Positions 17,773 to 47,402 of a stretch of DNA of 49,444 nt are shown here, one piece after another. Source of the stretch: Ignavibacteriaceae bacterium. Lineage in GTDB: Bacteria > Bacteroidota > Ignavibacteria > Ignavibacteriales > Ignavibacteriaceae. The stretch spans positions 1 through 49,444 of the forward strand of contig JACZKK010000017.1 in NCBI GenBank assembly GCA_014860115.1. The letters run 5' to 3'. Every line of letters begins with the position of its first letter. Position 1 is the stretch's first letter. A program made the translations under genes and the position numbers. The notes under the pieces were generated by a model. That model was not told where the DNA came from. It saw only the letters and a list, made by a program, of their open reading frames with translations, and did not search any database.

Positions 17773-17780
17773 GTCTGGTA

Positions 17781-18243
17781 GCTGGATACTTGATTCTGGA
17801 TACTGGATAAAAAATCTTAGGAATTAATTATGAGTTATAAAAATCTCGAAATTTGGCAACTTGCAAGAGAATTAGTAATCGAAATTCATAAAATGACTTT
17901 AACTCTTCCTAAATTCGAGATGTATGAAGAAGGAAGTCAAATAAGGAGATCTTCAAAATCGGTTAAATCTACTATTGTTGAAGGATACGGAAGAAGAAAT
18001 TATAAAAGTGATTATGAACGATATATCACAATAGCTTTGGCATCGAATGATGAAACTATTGACCATCTGGAAAATCTCTTTGAGACAGGTTCTCTTACTG
18101 ATGAAAAATTATTCACAGAATTACATTCCAAAATAGAAAAGCTTGGAAAGAAGATAAACAGATTTTTACAATCAGTACACAACGAACACATTAGCAATAA
18201 ATAAAAATTTCCAACATCCAGTATCCAGAATCAAGTATCTAGC
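17781..18243 (+). mobile_element. Putative mobile unit: four-helix-bundle gene within a 27-bp inverted repeat
   Basis: The left arm 17781-17807 (GCTGGATACTTGATTCTGGA and seven more bases) and the right arm 18217-18243 are inverted copies that match at 26 of 27 positions. Between them lies only the gene at 17830-18204. The unit begins 8 bp after the tdh stop and ends 7 bp before the kbl stop, filling the spacer of two convergent genes. A relative of the same arm is found inside hypF (45499-45531). There is no transposase, so any movement would need help in trans or copying through RNA. Confidence 0.6.
17830..18204 (+). CDS. Four-helix bundle protein (23S rRNA intervening-sequence protein family)
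   Basis: A 124-residue protein of the four-helix-bundle family first described from intervening sequences in 23S rRNA genes and related to the accessory protein Avd of diversity-generating retroelements. Marks: [20 protein letters not shown] at the N-terminus, the basic [22 protein letters not shown] turn (shown here as an outline, roughly residues 38-58), and [21 protein letters not shown]. Family members form pentameric, positively charged barrels that bind nucleic acid. This copy is not within an rRNA gene; it lies between near-perfect inverted repeats in a protein-coding region. The ribosome site is weak (TTAGGAATTA). The family is sure, the function is not. Confidence 0.92.
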
Positions 18244-18250
18244 ATCAACG

Positions 18251-24338: not shown

Positions 24339-24382
24339 ATATACATTGCATCTGATATTGGCATTCAAAAAAAGACCAGGGT

Positions 24383-24474
24383 TGTCATTCCGTGCTTGAC
24401 ACGGAATCCAGGGCAGCCAATATTTCCTAGATTCCGGATTTTCTCCCTATAAATCGGGATCGACCGGAATGACA
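24383..24474. repeat. Palindromic repeat with TGTCATTCCG ends
   Basis: A 92-bp unit beginning TGTCATTCCG and ending CGGAATGACA, with an inner stem (CCGTG..CACGG). A shorter member is found at 43707-43773, between hypC and hypD. Similar units are common in many bacterial genomes; here they mark spacers between genes. Confidence 0.85.
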
Positions 24475-42499: not shown

Positions 42500-42506
42500 T
42501 CTAAAC

Positions 42507-42582
42507 TGTCATTGCGAGGAGTGGAGCGACGAAGCAATCCTTAATTAAGTTTTAAGATTGCTTCGCTTCGCTCGCAATTACG
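42507..42582. repeat. GTCATTGCGAGGAG-type palindromic repeat over the hypD stop
   Basis: A 76-bp unit starting TGTCATTGCGAGGAG and ending CGCTCGCAATTACG, with inner arms GAAGCAATC / GATTGCTTC. This type is widespread in bacterial genomes. It fills the gap between hypE and hypD and runs into hypD, giving its last codons. Confidence 0.9.
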
Positions 42583-43679
42583 TGTTTTTCCTTCTTGACT
42601 TTTCCATAATGAAAATAAGCAGCGCAAGCTCCTTCGGTCGAAACCATTGGTGCACCAAGCGGATGCTCGGGTGTGCACTCTTTTCCGAAAGCAGAGCACT
42701 CAATTGGTTTTTTAATTCCCTGCAATACCTCTCCTGCAATGCACAAAGGAGATTCTTCTGTTTCTATATTTTCAACTTTAAATATTTTCTCGGCATCATA
42801 ATCAGAATATTCATCTTTCAATTTAAAACCACTTGAAGGAATATTGCCAATACCTCGCCACTTTCTGTCTGTTCTTTCAAAAACTTCTTCAAGTAACTTT
42901 TGTGCAGAAATATTTCCTTCGCTTGTAACAACCCTGCTGTATTGATTTTGGACTTCAAACTTTCCAACTTCAAGTTGTTTTACAGTTAAAAGAATACCCT
43001 GTAAAATATCTATTGGCTCAAAGCCGGTAACGACAATCGGCACATTATATTTTTCTGCAATCGGAAAATATTCATTATAGCCCATAACAGCGCATACATG
43101 TCCCGCTGCAAGAAAGCCTTGTATGTTGTTATTCTTAGATGAAAGAAGAGCTTCGATGGCAGGCGGAACAAGAACGTGCGAACAGAGAATAGAATAATTC
43201 TTTATTCCTCTTCTTTTTGCTTCGATGACTGACATTGCATTTGCAGGTGCGGTTGTTTCGAATCCGACTGCAAAGAAGACAACATTTTTTTCAGGATTAT
43301 TCTCGGCGATCTTAACCGCATCAAGCGGAGAGTAAACCATTTTGACATTCCCACCTTTTGCTTTAACACTTAATAAATCGTGCTTTGAACCCGGCACACG
43401 AAGCATATCGCCAAACGATGTAAAAATAACGTCTTCTCTCTGTGCAATTGAAATAGCTTTATCAATAAGTTCCAAAGGCGTTACACATACCGGACAGCCC
43501 GGACCATGAATGAGAGTAATCTCTTCAGGCAATAATTCTTCTATACTATACTTTAAAATAGAATGTGTTTGTCCTCCGCAAATTTCCATTATCTGCCAGG
43601 GTTTTGTCACAACGGACTTTATCTCTGCGGATAATTTCCTTGCAGCTTTTCCATCTCTGAATTCATCCAGGTATTTCAT
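42552..43679 (-). CDS. hypD: Hydrogenase maturation protein HypD
   Basis: A 375-residue iron-sulfur protein that, with HypC, assembles the Fe(CN)2CO unit. The start is set at ATG 43679 ([16 protein letters not shown]), which aligns with other HypD proteins; a frame open to 43712 begins within a repeat. Marks: [53 protein letters not shown] and the CxxxxxCx-type cysteines near the end ([20 protein letters not shown]). After the conserved [11 protein letters not shown] the last residues, VIASEAKQS, come from a palindromic repeat that also supplies the stop, so the original stop has been lost. This tail should be harmless but is a sign of repeat insertion. Confidence 0.95.
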
Positions 43680-43706
43680 TTGAGTATCTTCATTAAAAAT
43701 GCATTT

Positions 43707-43773
43707 TGTCATTCCGGCGAAAGCCGGAATCTAACAAAAGACAAATAGATTCCGTGTCAAGCACGGAATGACA
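43707..43773. repeat. TGTCATTCCG-type palindromic repeat between hypC and hypD
   Basis: A 67-bp unit starting TGTCATTCCGG and ending CGGAATGACA, with an inner CCGGCGAAAGCCGG hairpin. Related to 24383-24474. Inside the operon it would form an intercistronic hairpin in the mRNA. Confidence 0.88.
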
Positions 43774-43789
43774 ATTACTTCCAGATTGA

Positions 43790-44032
43790 TTAATTCTCTT
43801 CTTCAATGTCGCCCATTTCTCTTAAAATTCTCAATGTTTCCTCAGCATCTTTTTCGTCAACTTTATTTAGAGCAAAACCAACGTGAACAAGGACATAGTC
43901 TCCAATATTTACATCATCCAACCATTGAATGCAGACATCCTTCGACACTCCGCCAAAATTTACTTTCGCCATTCTTAAATCGGGATTGCTTTCATCAATT
44001 GAAACTATTTTTCCTGGAACAGCAAGACACAT
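43790..44032 (-). CDS. hypC: Hydrogenase maturation chaperone HypC
   Basis: An 80-residue chaperone that holds the iron unit together with HypD and then docks on the hydrogenase large-subunit precursor. The essential N-terminal cysteine is present (MCLAVPGKIVSID), followed by the OB-like VNFGGVSKDVCIQWLDDVNIGDYVLVHVGFALNKVDEKDAEETL in the usual order. The first base of the ATG is shared with the last base of the hypF stop (TAATG), so translation is coupled. Very secure. Confidence 0.96.
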   Translation of the reverse strand: MCLAVPGKIVSIDESNPDLRMAKVNFGGVSKDVCIQWLDDVNIGDYVLVHVGFALNKVDEKDAEETLRILREMGDIEEEN

Positions 44033-46392
44033 TAGCTAATCTCCTTAGTTAATTGGTTTTCTTTTTCAGTTTCAGAGCGTTGATTGTGTTTTCCAACAGC
44101 GTCGGACTTTGATAGCATCATATAAGCAGCTATCTGCCCAAGAGAAATTCCTCCGTCGTTAGGAGGAATGCGCTGATGCCAGTAAACTTTATATTTATTC
44201 TCTTGCAACAAATTTATTGTTCTTTCCGTTAATAATGCATTCTGAAAGCATCCCCCACTTAAAACCACCTTATTCAACTCAGATCTTTTTACGATTTCAA
44301 GAATTACTTTCGCAAGTGTGTTGTGAAATTTTGTTGAGATGGCTGAAGAATTTATATCCTTCCTCAAATCATTAATCATTGAGATTATAATTGGCTGCCA
44401 ATCAATAATTAATTTATCTGACTCTTTTATTTCAAACGGATAACATCCCTTCTCATTCAAATCCGCTGCAAACTCAAGCATCATTGCTGCTTGTCCTTCG
44501 TAGTTTGTCCGGTCACAAATTCCAAGCAGTGATGAAACAGCATCAAATAGTCTTCCTGCACTTGAAGTAACCGGAGAATTAATTTTTTTCGATAACATAT
44601 TCAGCAATATGCCAATCTCGGCTAAAGTGAATTTATTTTCAATTAAATCACTAAACTCATTTACAAAAGATACGCCTCCAATTTCAAATAGAATTCCTGT
44701 AAGAGATCGTCTTGGTTCTTTTATTGCTTTTTCTCCGCCGGGAAGTACAAACTTTCTAAACTGAGCAAAATGTTTGTATGAATTATCATCGGTTAAAAAA
44801 AACTCTCCACCCCAAACTGTTCCATCCAGACCATAACCGGTACCATCCCAGGAAACACCAAGTGCCTCACCTTCAACCTGGTTTTCAAATCTGCACGCCG
44901 CAACATGTGCAAAATGGTGCTGAACTTGTTCTATCTTTTCATTCAACTGCTTTGCATACTTTGTTGAAATGTATTCGGGATGAAGATCACTTATTATTTC
45001 ATTGGGCTCAGCATTATAAAGGAGTTTAAAATCGTTAATCACTTTTTTAAATGTTTTGTTAGATTCCTCAGTTGAAAGATCACCAATGTGCTGGCTGATA
45101 AAAATATTATTTCCTTTTTTCAGAGCAACTGTATTCTTCAGGTGCCCACCAACAGCAAGTATAGTTTTTTCTTTCAATGAAGAATATATCTCAGTTACCA
45201 TTACAGGTAAAGGTGCATATCCGCGAGCACGCCTAATAACAAGTTCACGATTCATAATTACCTGGACTATAGAATCATCAACGTGACGAATAATTGGCCT
45301 GTTATGAATCAAATAATAATCAGCAATTCCTCTCAGTCTTTCCAAAGCTTCCTGCTCATCGATACAAATTGGTTCCTCAGATAAGTTTGCACTGGTTGCA
45401 ACAACTGGAAGATTTAGTTCTCTCATTAATAAATGATGAATCGGAGTGTATGGAAGCATTGCTCCAAGATAAGGATTATTTGGTGCAACAAATTCCGAGA
45501 TGCTGGTTATTGGATGCTGGATTCTGGATGCTTTTTTGACAAGAACTATTGGAGACTCAGTAGAACAGAGAACTCTTTCTTCTATTTCGAAAACTTCACA
45601 TACATTGTTAATTGACTCTATTGAGGGAAACATCAATGCAAAAGGTTTTTCTTCGCGATGTTTTCTTTTTCTTAATTCTCTTACGGCTTCATCGTTAGTT
45701 GCATCAACAATTAGCTGAAAGCCACCCAATCCTTTTAACGCAATTATTTTTCCCTGGCGAATTAACTCAACTGTTTGCTTTAAGGCAGATTGTTTTTCAG
45801 AAATAATATTTCCGTTTTCATCCCAAAGGAATAGTTGAGGACCACAATCCTGGCAGGCAGTGGGTTGTGCATGGAATCTTCGGTCGGAAGGATTTTCATA
45901 TTCTTCTCTGCACTTATCGCACATCTTAAAGTTTTTCATCGATGTGTTAGGACGATCGTAAGGCAGCGATTCGATAATAGAAAATCTTGGTCCGCAATTA
46001 GTACAGTTAATAAAAGGATATAAATATCTGCGGTCATCAGGATCCAACATTTCATTCAAACAATCATCACACACAGCAAAGTCCGGGAGAATTAGCACAG
46101 AAACATCATCACTCTCCTCACTTTCTTTTATTTCAAATTTTGAATAACCAACTGGATCAAGAAAAGAATGTTCAAGACTTGTAATTACAGAAAGTTTCGG
46201 TTTATCTGTTTCAATCCTTGCAAGAAAATTCCTCAGAAGAAGTTCATCACCTTCTGCTTCAATAAAAACTCCACTTGAATTATTTAGGACGTAACCATTC
46301 AGGTTCAATTCATTAGCAAGTTTGAAGATGAACGGACGGAAACCAACACCCTGAACTGCACCCCTGATTGCTATGTGGATTCGTGTGCTCAA
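44032..46392 (-). CDS. hypF: Carbamoyltransferase HypF
   Basis: A 786-residue protein that takes the carbamoyl group from carbamoyl phosphate through carbamoyl-AMP and gives it to HypE. TTG start directly behind the hypB stop. Domains: acylphosphatase (1-90, VQGVGFRPFIF), two zinc fingers (about 105-185, CDDCLNEML, CTNCGPRF, CDKCREEY, CQDCGP), YrdC-like (200-390, KRKHREEKPFALMFP) and Kae1-like carbamoyltransferase (400-760, HHFAHVAACRFE, WDGTGYGLDGTVWGGE, LSGGCFQNALL). Residues about 288-298 (ASRIQHPITSI) are encoded by a repeat inserted in frame. The last 27 residues after GQIAAYMM are a charged tail not usual in the family. Confidence 0.95.
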   Translation of the reverse strand: MSTRIHIAIRGAVQGVGFRPFIFKLANELNLNGYVLNNSSGVFIEAEGDELLLRNFLARIETDKPKLSVITSLEHSFLDPVGYSKFEIKESEESDDVSVLILPDFAVCDDCLNEMLDPDDRRYLYPFINCTNCGPRFSIIESLPYDRPNTSMKNFKMCDKCREEYENPSDRRFHAQPTACQDCGPQLFLWDENGNIISEKQSALKQTVELIRQGKIIALKGLGGFQLIVDATNDEAVRELRKRKHREEKPFALMFPSIESINNVCEVFEIEERVLCSTESPIVLVKKASRIQHPITSISEFVAPNNPYLGAMLPYTPIHHLLMRELNLPVVATSANLSEEPICIDEQEALERLRGIADYYLIHNRPIIRHVDDSIVQVIMNRELVIRRARGYAPLPVMVTEIYSSLKEKTILAVGGHLKNTVALKKGNNIFISQHIGDLSTEESNKTFKKVINDFKLLYNAEPNEIISDLHPEYISTKYAKQLNEKIEQVQHHFAHVAACRFENQVEGEALGVSWDGTGYGLDGTVWGGEFFLTDDNSYKHFAQFRKFVLPGGEKAIKEPRRSLTGILFEIGGVSFVNEFSDLIENKFTLAEIGILLNMLSKKINSPVTSSAGRLFDAVSSLLGICDRTNYEGQAAMMLEFAADLNEKGCYPFEIKESDKLIIDWQPIIISMINDLRKDINSSAISTKFHNTLAKVILEIVKRSELNKVVLSGGCFQNALLTERTINLLQENKYKVYWHQRIPPNDGGISLGQIAAYMMLSKSDAVGKHNQRSETEKENQLTKEIS
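45499..45531. repeat. Repeat inside hypF, related to the inverted repeat at 17781/18217
   Basis: GATGCTGGTTATTGGATGCT followed by GGATTCTGGATGC. Over the 22 positions starting TGGATGCTGGATTC it matches the arm at 17783 at 19 of 22 positions. It reads through hypF in frame without a stop. Confidence 0.7.
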
Positions 46393-47043
46393 TTATCTTT
46401 TAATTTTAGATTCGATCCATCCGCACCATTCTGCAATTCCTTCATCATTAGTGCAGGAAGTTTTAAATATTTTTAATGAGGGATTAATTGATAAAGCATT
46501 TTTCTCAATCAATGCAGTCGAACAATTTACGTACGGGACAAGATCGATTTTATTAATAATCAATGCCGAAGCATTCCTGAACATTGCCGGGTACTTTAAC
46601 GGTTTATCATCTCCTTCAGTTGTGCTTACAATTACAACTTTAAGATCTTCACCGAGATCATATCCGGCAGGACAAACAAGGTTACCAACATTCTCTATGA
46701 AAAGTACTTCGAAGTTATTTGTCTCGATTTGCCCAAAAGCATCTCTTACTAATCCGGCCTCGAGATGACAAGCTCCCTGTGTTATTATTTGAACAACAGG
46801 AACACCGTAAGCAGCTACTCTTTCCGCATCAAGACTTGTCTGCACATCACCTTCGATCACAGCAATGTCAAATTTATTTTTAGTATGATGGATTGTTCTT
46901 TCAATAAGGCTTGTTTTTCCAGAACCCGGTGAGCTGACAAGATTCATCGTGAAGAGATTTTTTTTCTTGAACACTTCCCTGTTCTGCTGAGCAATGGCGT
47001 CATTCTTTTCTAAAACTTTTCGTTCAACTGTAATTACACTCAT
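46393..47043 (-). CDS. hypB: Hydrogenase nickel-incorporation GTPase HypB
   Basis: A 216-residue SIMIBI-class GTPase that drives nickel insertion together with HypA. Marks: P-loop NLVSSPGSGKTSLIERT, GDVQTSLDAERV, ENVGNLVCPAGYDLGED (metal-binding region between switches) and the guanine-binding NKIDLVPYVNC. The His-rich N-terminal nickel store and the CXXCGC motif of some HypB proteins are lacking, so it holds only the G-domain metal site. It overlaps hypA by 4 bp and is followed without gap by the hypF TTG. Confidence 0.96.
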   Translation of the reverse strand: MSVITVERKVLEKNDAIAQQNREVFKKKNLFTMNLVSSPGSGKTSLIERTIHHTKNKFDIAVIEGDVQTSLDAERVAAYGVPVVQIITQGACHLEAGLVRDAFGQIETNNFEVLFIENVGNLVCPAGYDLGEDLKVVIVSTTEGDDKPLKYPAMFRNASALIINKIDLVPYVNCSTALIEKNALSINPSLKIFKTSCTNDEGIAEWCGWIESKIKR

Positions 47044-47402
47044 TGTTGCTCCTTAATTTCGTCAAAAAGTTCTATCTCATCTACTTTTAATTCTGTACCA
47101 GAAATAATATTTATTTTATTATCACCACAATTCGGGCAGGCAAAAACAGGATCATCAATCTCTGATACTTTGTTGCAGTTAGAACATTGAATTTTTACAG
47201 GTAATTCAATTATTTCAAGCTTTGTACCATTTAGGGGAGTATCACCAGTGATAGCTTCAAAACAGAAAGTAAGCGAGTCTACCAAAATATTACTCAATTT
47301 TCCAACACTTACCTTTACTGATTTCACAGTATTCGGTTTGGGATCGGGAACGTATTGATGTACAATCCCTAAAATTTCCTGTGCGACAGATAATTCGTGC
47401 AT
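47040..47402 (-). CDS. hypA: Nickel chaperone HypA
   Basis: A 120-residue metallochaperone that brings Ni to the hydrogenase large subunit. The nickel-binding N-terminus MHELSVAQEIL (His2, Glu3) and the structural zinc site CSNC-CPNC (CSNCNKVSEIDDPVFACPNCG, residues about 76-96) are both present. First gene of the hypABFCDE operon; its promoter must lie in the 130-bp divergent spacer 47403-47532 shared with the permease gene, where I see no clear NikR-like operator. Confidence 0.96.
   Translation of the reverse strand: MHELSVAQEILGIVHQYVPDPKPNTVKSVKVSVGKLSNILVDSLTFCFEAITGDTPLNGTKLEIIELPVKIQCSNCNKVSEIDDPVFACPNCGDNKINIISGTELKVDEIELFDEIKEQQ

Follow-up and report, generated by a model that had tools for sequence, protein, structure and literature searches.

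The window, by which we mean the whole 49,444-nucleotide stretch analysed here, carries a hypF gene with a short repeat array inside it and, elsewhere, a four-helix-bundle gene framed by two arms of the same repeat (Table 1). An earlier note on this DNA had placed an in-frame 33-bp repeat arm in the part of hypF that codes for the YrdC-like domain. Translation bears out the position and the peptide, and the hypF frame runs uninterrupted through 786 codons, array included.

Table 1. Positions of the hypF array and of the IVP element in the window
Feature	Position	Strand	Remarks
IVP left arm, GGATACT TGATTCT GGATACT GGAT array	17775..17811	+	pattern and repeat scan
Four-helix-bundle gene, Pfam PF05635 (23S_rRNA_IVP), 124 aa	17830..18204	+	nearest solved structure XCC0516 (2gsc)
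IVP right arm, inverted copy of left arm	18206..18247	-	28 nt at 96% complementarity
hypF, 786 aa	44032..46392	-	acylphosphatase, HypF zinc-finger, YrdC-like and Kae1-like Pfam domains present
Heptanucleotide array	45499..45531	-	codes HypF residues 288-298, ASRIQHPITSI

On the plus strand the array reads GATGCT GGTTATT GGATGCT GGATTCT GGATGC, with GGATNCT as its unit. Nowhere in hypF is the lag-7 agreement higher than in this array, at 18 of 26 positions, a score that 3 of 500 codon-shuffled hypF genes reached. The pattern GGATNCTGGATNCTGGATNCT fits 45512-45532 exactly. If up to three mismatches are allowed, it has 10 matches in the window against 0.05 expected, and these are confined to three places: the hypF array and both arms of the PF05635 gene. 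Thus the array has the 7-nt periodicity of an IVP-element arm, and its unit is common to the PF05635 arms of the same genome, as the earlier note had supposed in assigning it to their family. In ungapped comparison, the array scores 20 with the IVP locus of the window, which ranks third among 111 IVP loci, two loci of Ignavibacterium sp. CROMO_A_100 (G015) being ahead or equal.

The hypF array is solo. The pattern scan finds no second arm near hypF in the window, and hypF has no inverted pair around a PF05635 gene, as the PF05635 search places the only such gene of the window at 17839-18159. No RNA family reaches its Rfam gathering score at 43000-47100. In the whole genome to which the window belongs (G000), the pattern has 33 matches and a reversed control pattern has none; because many of the matches overlap at 7-nt shifts, they correspond to 17 distinct places by our own count. 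Some of the single three-mismatch matches in long ordinary frames (L022, L025, L030, L032) may be chance.

The position of the array in the protein was taken from an AlphaFold2 model built from 56 aligned HypF sequences (mean pLDDT 93.8). Within the YrdC-like domain, residues 288-307 connect the strands formed by 282-287 and 308-312, so the repeat lies in a loop between two beta-strands. The mean pLDDT is 70 for residues 291-300 versus 92-98 in the adjoining blocks, and it is lower only near the C-terminus. The modelled location and this low confidence fit a loop in which additional residues are tolerated. The corresponding stretch of the solved structure 3vth is six residues shorter. Alignment columns scored as invariant in the set of 56 are intact in the HypF of the window by definition.

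Two other repeats lie near hypF or in the window. A palindromic repeat of another family occupies 42505-42580 between hypD and hypE, and its first arm codes for the last residues of HypD. Hence neither hypD nor hypE is another case of the hypF repeat: hypD ends in an arm of a different palindrome, and hypE starts past the other arm. Another dispersed repeat, an exact 27-nt inverted repeat pair, TTGTCATTCCGTGCTTGACACGGAATC, is found at 24382-24408 and 43748-43774, one copy being just upstream of hypD.

The HypF loop in relatives and across the class

HypF loops were first compared across 67 HypF loci, 60 of them taken from named genomes and 7 from relatives; the 64 that span the loop were aligned. 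A class-wide search then found HypF at E <= 1e-50 in 150 of 391 genomes, many of the genomes compared being metagenome assemblies. The resulting 222 loci gave 208 distinct sequences spanning the loop, after 14 were dropped as duplicates or as not spanning it. Measured from PIVLV to the G of LGxML in these 208 sequences, the loop is mostly 19-21 residues long, with a maximum of 63.

The nearest relative, BMS3Abin03 (G325), is 73% identical in the region and has a loop of 24 residues like that of the window, with differing residues (KDGNDNRATTISKF). Its loop has no 7-nt periodicity and shares 14 of 33 bases with the insert, 9.5 being the chance expectation (p = 0.056). Loop lengths in other relatives are 20 (G007), 21 (G058), 19 (G038), 25 (L071) and 28 (G368). 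Compared with the HypF of the window, the loops of relatives without a recognisable array therefore lack up to about 5 residues or have up to 4 more, and the clean 11-residue gap at about residues 288-298 that the earlier note expected of them is absent. Given this range, the repeat either added fewer residues than it encodes or replaced an older loop, and the simple reading of 11 inserted residues is ruled out. A clean empty-site comparison also fails, demonstrating neither an empty site nor a target-site duplication, the nearest HypF being equally long in the loop and, at 73% identity, too divergent; on this pair of sequences, a gain in the window and a decay in G325 would both fit.

The genome G015 has the GGATNCT unit at the same place as the window (SFIRHQASSIQHPASSIS). 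Among the relatives aligned, none lacks the repeat and yet has the same residues, which would have spoken against an insertion; the sole similar loop is that of G015, which carries the same repeat. The loop of G209 (L226:904-993) reads HCEEHPPDRRSRTGSDAAIS. We take it to resemble yet another dispersed palindromic repeat.

Recurrence was counted in a class set of 153 HypF sequences, which leaves out L282 (the L277 gene again) and two class members that had been found by name, L072 and L077; two genes are present twice, once as a fragment (L043/L174 and L046/L251, none periodic). A loop was called periodic if a 35-nt window had lag-7 agreement of at least 0.55 with a shuffle p of at most 0.01, thresholds that were chosen in this analysis. 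A lag-7 array was present in the loop of 17 of the 153. By the same rule the loop gave 0, 0, 0, 1, 0 and 0 at lags 5, 6, 8, 9, 10 and 11, and equally long control segments from other parts of these hypF genes gave 2 of 918 at lag 7 (Fisher p = 2.6e-13 versus the loop) and 1, 1, 9, 9, 5 and 2 at those other lags. Of 45 loops picked by hand from the longer ones, 12 had z > 3 at lag 7, compared with 0 of 90 flank pieces.

A coarser scan of whole genes (155 class sequences) had 18 lag-7 hits at residues 285-299 and 4 at 300-314, and the next highest lag-7 bin had 5. Its peaks at other lags, 16 at residues 510-524 for lag 5 and 13 at 45-59 for lag 13, are taken for conserved sequence. Among 50 HypF sequences from other groups, the coarser scan found none in the loop bins at lag 7.

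The array units differ among genomes: GGATNCT in G000 and G015, AAATCCG in G326, ACATCTC-like in G255, TTCATTC in G262 and ACTCCCC in G096. In G112 the unit is CGGAATT, with an inverse copy about 50 nt further on. On a FastTree tree made without the loop, at least 14 changes are required for the 17 positives, gains and losses being pooled (Treekit).

The 17 positive loops are 22, 23 (three), 24 (four), 31 (three), 38 (two), 39, 40, 51 and 59 residues long. Ten of them equal 3 modulo 7 (24, 31, 38 and 59 residues; p 2e-4 to 5e-4), whereas moduli 4-6 and 8-12 gave p >= 0.02. The lengths thus cluster at 24, 31 and 38 residues, in steps of 21 nt or three units, and 7 residues (21 nt) is the smallest change that keeps the frame with 7-nt units. 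In 15 of the 17 arrays the coding strand is the C-rich strand (two-sided sign test by hand, 0.002). Explaining this orientation by hydropathy alone was unconvincing, several arrays not being on the more hydrophilic strand; hydropathy and stops are only a rough guide because they were taken over all three frames.

Loops of at least 24 residues occur in 47 of the 153 class sequences and, among further HypF mostly from other groups, in 8 of 54. The strict 7-nt test is passed by 13 of the 47 and failed by 34, so other causes of loop growth exist, and the idea that all long loops are heptanucleotide arrays is ruled out. Exact stems of at least 10 bp are present in 3 of 153 loops and in 0 of 306 controls, one of the three (L254) being periodic too. 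Hairpin stems of 13 and 15 bp take the place of arrays in the long loops L256:874-996 and L221:868-951 (CCTTGCGAAGGTT; AACGTTGTCAAGGTT). In the remaining non-periodic long loops we recognised no repeat type.

Arrays in other genes and beside PF05635 genes

The claim that such repeats can become protein-coding is upheld by hypF and by in-frame arrays in other reading frames of G000. In L013, which we take to be a DacB-like frame, the array follows a putative signal peptide, both names being presumed from sequence motifs. In L017 and L033 the arrays are in C-terminal tails, presumably of the NPFNP type, again judging by motif. The tail of L033:613-1615 (G000:C168) contains PESRIEHLPAGRQGPASGIYFY, where a heptamer-like stretch adjoins a TGCCTACCGGCAGGCAGG-type stretch, both in frame.

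One match of the G255 insert is in frame within another gene, of which L289:885-1796 and L444 carry perfect ACATCTC arrays in one loop in two genomes. From the alignment, we assume that this gene codes for ATP synthase gamma. In a sample made of the G255 query and the best 30 loci (114 genomes had a match), perfect ACATCTC arrays are present in the loop of this putative ATP synthase gamma in 2 of 31, G255 included, and a weaker array in 1 of 31; the sample leans to close relatives of G255 because the best-matching loci were taken. The three genomes concerned, G255, G155 and G120, are all of family f20.

PF05635 genes are present in all 17 array-positive genomes, 2-15 in each and 9 in G000. In total 136 places were found and 110 fetched, which with that of the window makes 111; 105 of these have flanks of at least 150 nt on both sides. 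With gene ends defined by HMM, a distance of at most 220 nt from the gene and a lag agreement of at least 0.6, a lag-7 array flanks the gene at 83 of 105 loci. Lags 5, 6, 8, 9 and 10 gave 2, 10, 22, 13 and 8 of 105, and inside the gene lag 7 gave 1 of 105, the control pieces there being 160 nt and the flanks up to 220 nt. Of the intergenic control pieces close to hypF, 8 of 62 were positive at lag 7 and 7 of 62 at lag 10; close to the ATP synthase gene, the lag-7 count was 0 of 11. The 0.6 cut can let AT-rich stretches through, against which the lag comparison and the test of inverted units are the safeguards. An earlier flank count (22 of 30 loci, 15 with arrays on both sides, 17 inverted, controls 5.6% of 178) was superseded by this one because its gene ends were approximate and four loci were short. 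In the same phylum beyond the class, flank arrays were found at 16 of 21 loci (6 at lag 8), at least two of the 16 being merely AT-rich; 28 of the 29 loci of the phylum sample were counted.

At a stricter cut of 0.64, a unit was obtained for 98 of 140 PF05635 loci. Of the 64 loci with an array on both sides, 61 have units inverted relative to each other, the downstream one agreeing with the reverse complement of its upstream partner at no fewer than 5 of 7 positions; random pairs of units average 3.8. The units vary from gene to gene, and their likeness rises with protein identity: between 10 and 50% identity the bin means are 3.6-3.8 of 7 positions, at 50-60% the mean is 4.35, and beyond that 4.92. 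Shared descent of whole loci may explain part of this trend. This framing of PF05635 genes by inverted arrays may outweigh the hypF case in importance.

Origin of the hypF arrays

Three of the 45 inserts (from G255, G112 and G134) were searched for in 12 genomes. Apart from itself, the G255 insert is matched at 11 places in G255; there are 13 matches in G326, among them the hypF loop of G326 itself, 3 in G181, which has no hypF array, and a single one in G000, and 8 of the 12 genomes have no match. The G112 insert has 4 non-self places in G112, 3 in G068, 1 in G255 and none in 9 of the 12. For the hairpin-type insert of G134, three non-self matches were found in its own genome and one in G110, and 10 of the 12 genomes had none. 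We also compared 16 of the 17 positives (L152 being left out) with the flanks of the 111 IVP loci. The hypF arrays match the IVP flanks of their own genomes with a score of 16.4, compared with 12.9 for permuted pairings (sd 0.75, p = 0.0005). The single best flank comes from another genome for 11 of the 16 inserts, including that of the window, whose best flank is in G015 (24, versus 20 with its own IVP arms), and the best own flank ranks 17th-56th of 111 in G299, G392, G313, G120 and G068.

We consider it probable that the 33 bp in hypF are a solo GGATNCT array of the IVP-arm kind, which was captured in the HypF loop after spreading from dispersed arms. Arrays would be copied or recombined from dispersed IVP arms to many places, and selection would remove nearly all coding insertions. 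Those kept would lie in loops that tolerate extra residues, with a stop-free frame and a net length change of 21 nt, or three units. Later slippage would then alter the loop by 7 residues per step. We think that HypF gains no new function from the array.

The arrays could instead have been born locally, arising de novo in a loop that is both slippage-prone and unconstrained, with no relation to the dispersed arms. The loop is indeed unconstrained across HypF, and 21-nt length steps are what 7-nt slippage under a frame filter is expected to give. Slippage should, however, give other unit lengths as well, and the loop has no excess at other lags. Moreover, the units match dispersed copies in the three genomes whose inserts were searched for and in G000, and the inserts fit their own IVP arms better than permuted ones, so that we regard local birth as unlikely. 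Another reading is selection for function, a longer loop helping HypF, for example as a binding surface, and the repeats being mere raw material. That the loop is long in many lineages speaks for such a benefit, but 106 of the 153 class sequences stay below 24 residues, the inserts have no obvious peptide in common and the loop has low model confidence; we judge this very unlikely.

Hardly any weight is left for the view that all the arrays descend, with divergence, from one repeat already present in an ancestral HypF loop. Some positives are related, G255, G326, G120 and G392 sharing a family, and G000 and G015, which belong to one family, have the same unit at the same site. However, the number of changes on the HypF tree, the differing units (GGATNCT, CGGAATT, AAATCCG, TTCATTC, ACTCCCC and others) and the non-periodic loops of the nearest neighbours of both G000 and G015 argue against common descent.

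Capture of dispersed arrays, which we prefer, could be part of something wider that we put forward as no more than a tentative possibility. PF05635 proteins might confer specificity on small selfish elements that form a large and so far unrecognised class, each protein recognising its own heptanucleotide in the inverted arrays that flank its gene and promoting the spread of the arrays. Solo arrays would enter tolerant loops and tails (HypF, ATP synthase gamma, secretion tails) as peptides of 7-residue period, and the intervening sequences (IVSs) of 23S rRNA would be the subset residing in tolerant rRNA loops.

Comparison with known systems

Repeats that code for protein are mostly described as isolated curiosities, and the HypF loop is a recurrent case. 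The HypF tree suggests that one loop has acted as a natural trap for different repeats in about a dozen lineages, which makes insertion, frame filtering and tolerance measurable. The S23/IVP family, said in PMC4990558 to have no known function, gains a concrete and testable partner in the heptanucleotide arrays, specific to each gene, that accompany most of its members. Among the literature matches listed, mostly open-access, none linked PF05635 genes generally to gene-specific inverted heptamer arrays and none described repeats in HypF.

For a repeat read in frame inside a conserved gene, the nearest precedent is the palindromic elements of Rickettsia, described as dispersed repeats of a selfish type, about 150 bp long and in frame at tolerant positions of conserved genes (PMC10969869). 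The likeness to them drawn in the earlier note holds for the in-frame reading and fails for the kind of repeat, the hypF array being 33 bp of tandem 7-nt repeats rather than a palindrome of about 150 bp. Unlike the elements as described there, the arrays also occupy the same HypF loop repeatedly in many genera, with lineage-specific units and the PF05635 arms as their likely source.

Dispersed heptamer arrays, some of them inside reading frames, are known from the TAACTGA direct repeats of Beggiatoaceae, Cyanobacteria and some Bacteroidetes, which in the Beggiatoaceae genome studied are mostly intergenic (PMC4679880). That paper proposed a repeat-binding factor (candidates S1, Csp and CsrA) or a mobile binding protein, and its main text has no mention of 'S23' or 'helix bundle'. 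The TAACTGA repeats differ in having a single unit, which in one of its orientations brings in-frame stops. Tandem repeats inside reading frames of Borgs likewise give peptide repeats, which are often disordered, and a conserved hotspot is reported (PMC9879509); Borgs are large archaeal extrachromosomal elements, and inverted arms flanking a gene for a four-helix bundle are absent from their abstract-level account.

As for the source of the arrays, the closest precedent is the 23S rRNA IVS of Coxiella burnetii, described as an S23p reading frame between complementary ends (a 28-bp stem, or terminal inverted repeats) with two or three tandem heptameric direct repeats just before the frame, and IVSs are said to recur at a few tolerant loop sites of 23S rRNA (PMC4990558). 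The IVP loci share with it the S23/IVP frame between complementary ends and the heptamers near the frame. IVSs are further marked by their place in 23S rRNA and by being cut out of the RNA by RNase III. In contrast to the IVS, the hypF array lies in a protein gene and comes without a reading frame of its own, with no rRNA match at 43000-47100. Compared with the Coxiella element as described, most PF05635 elements here have arrays on both sides, each with its own unit.
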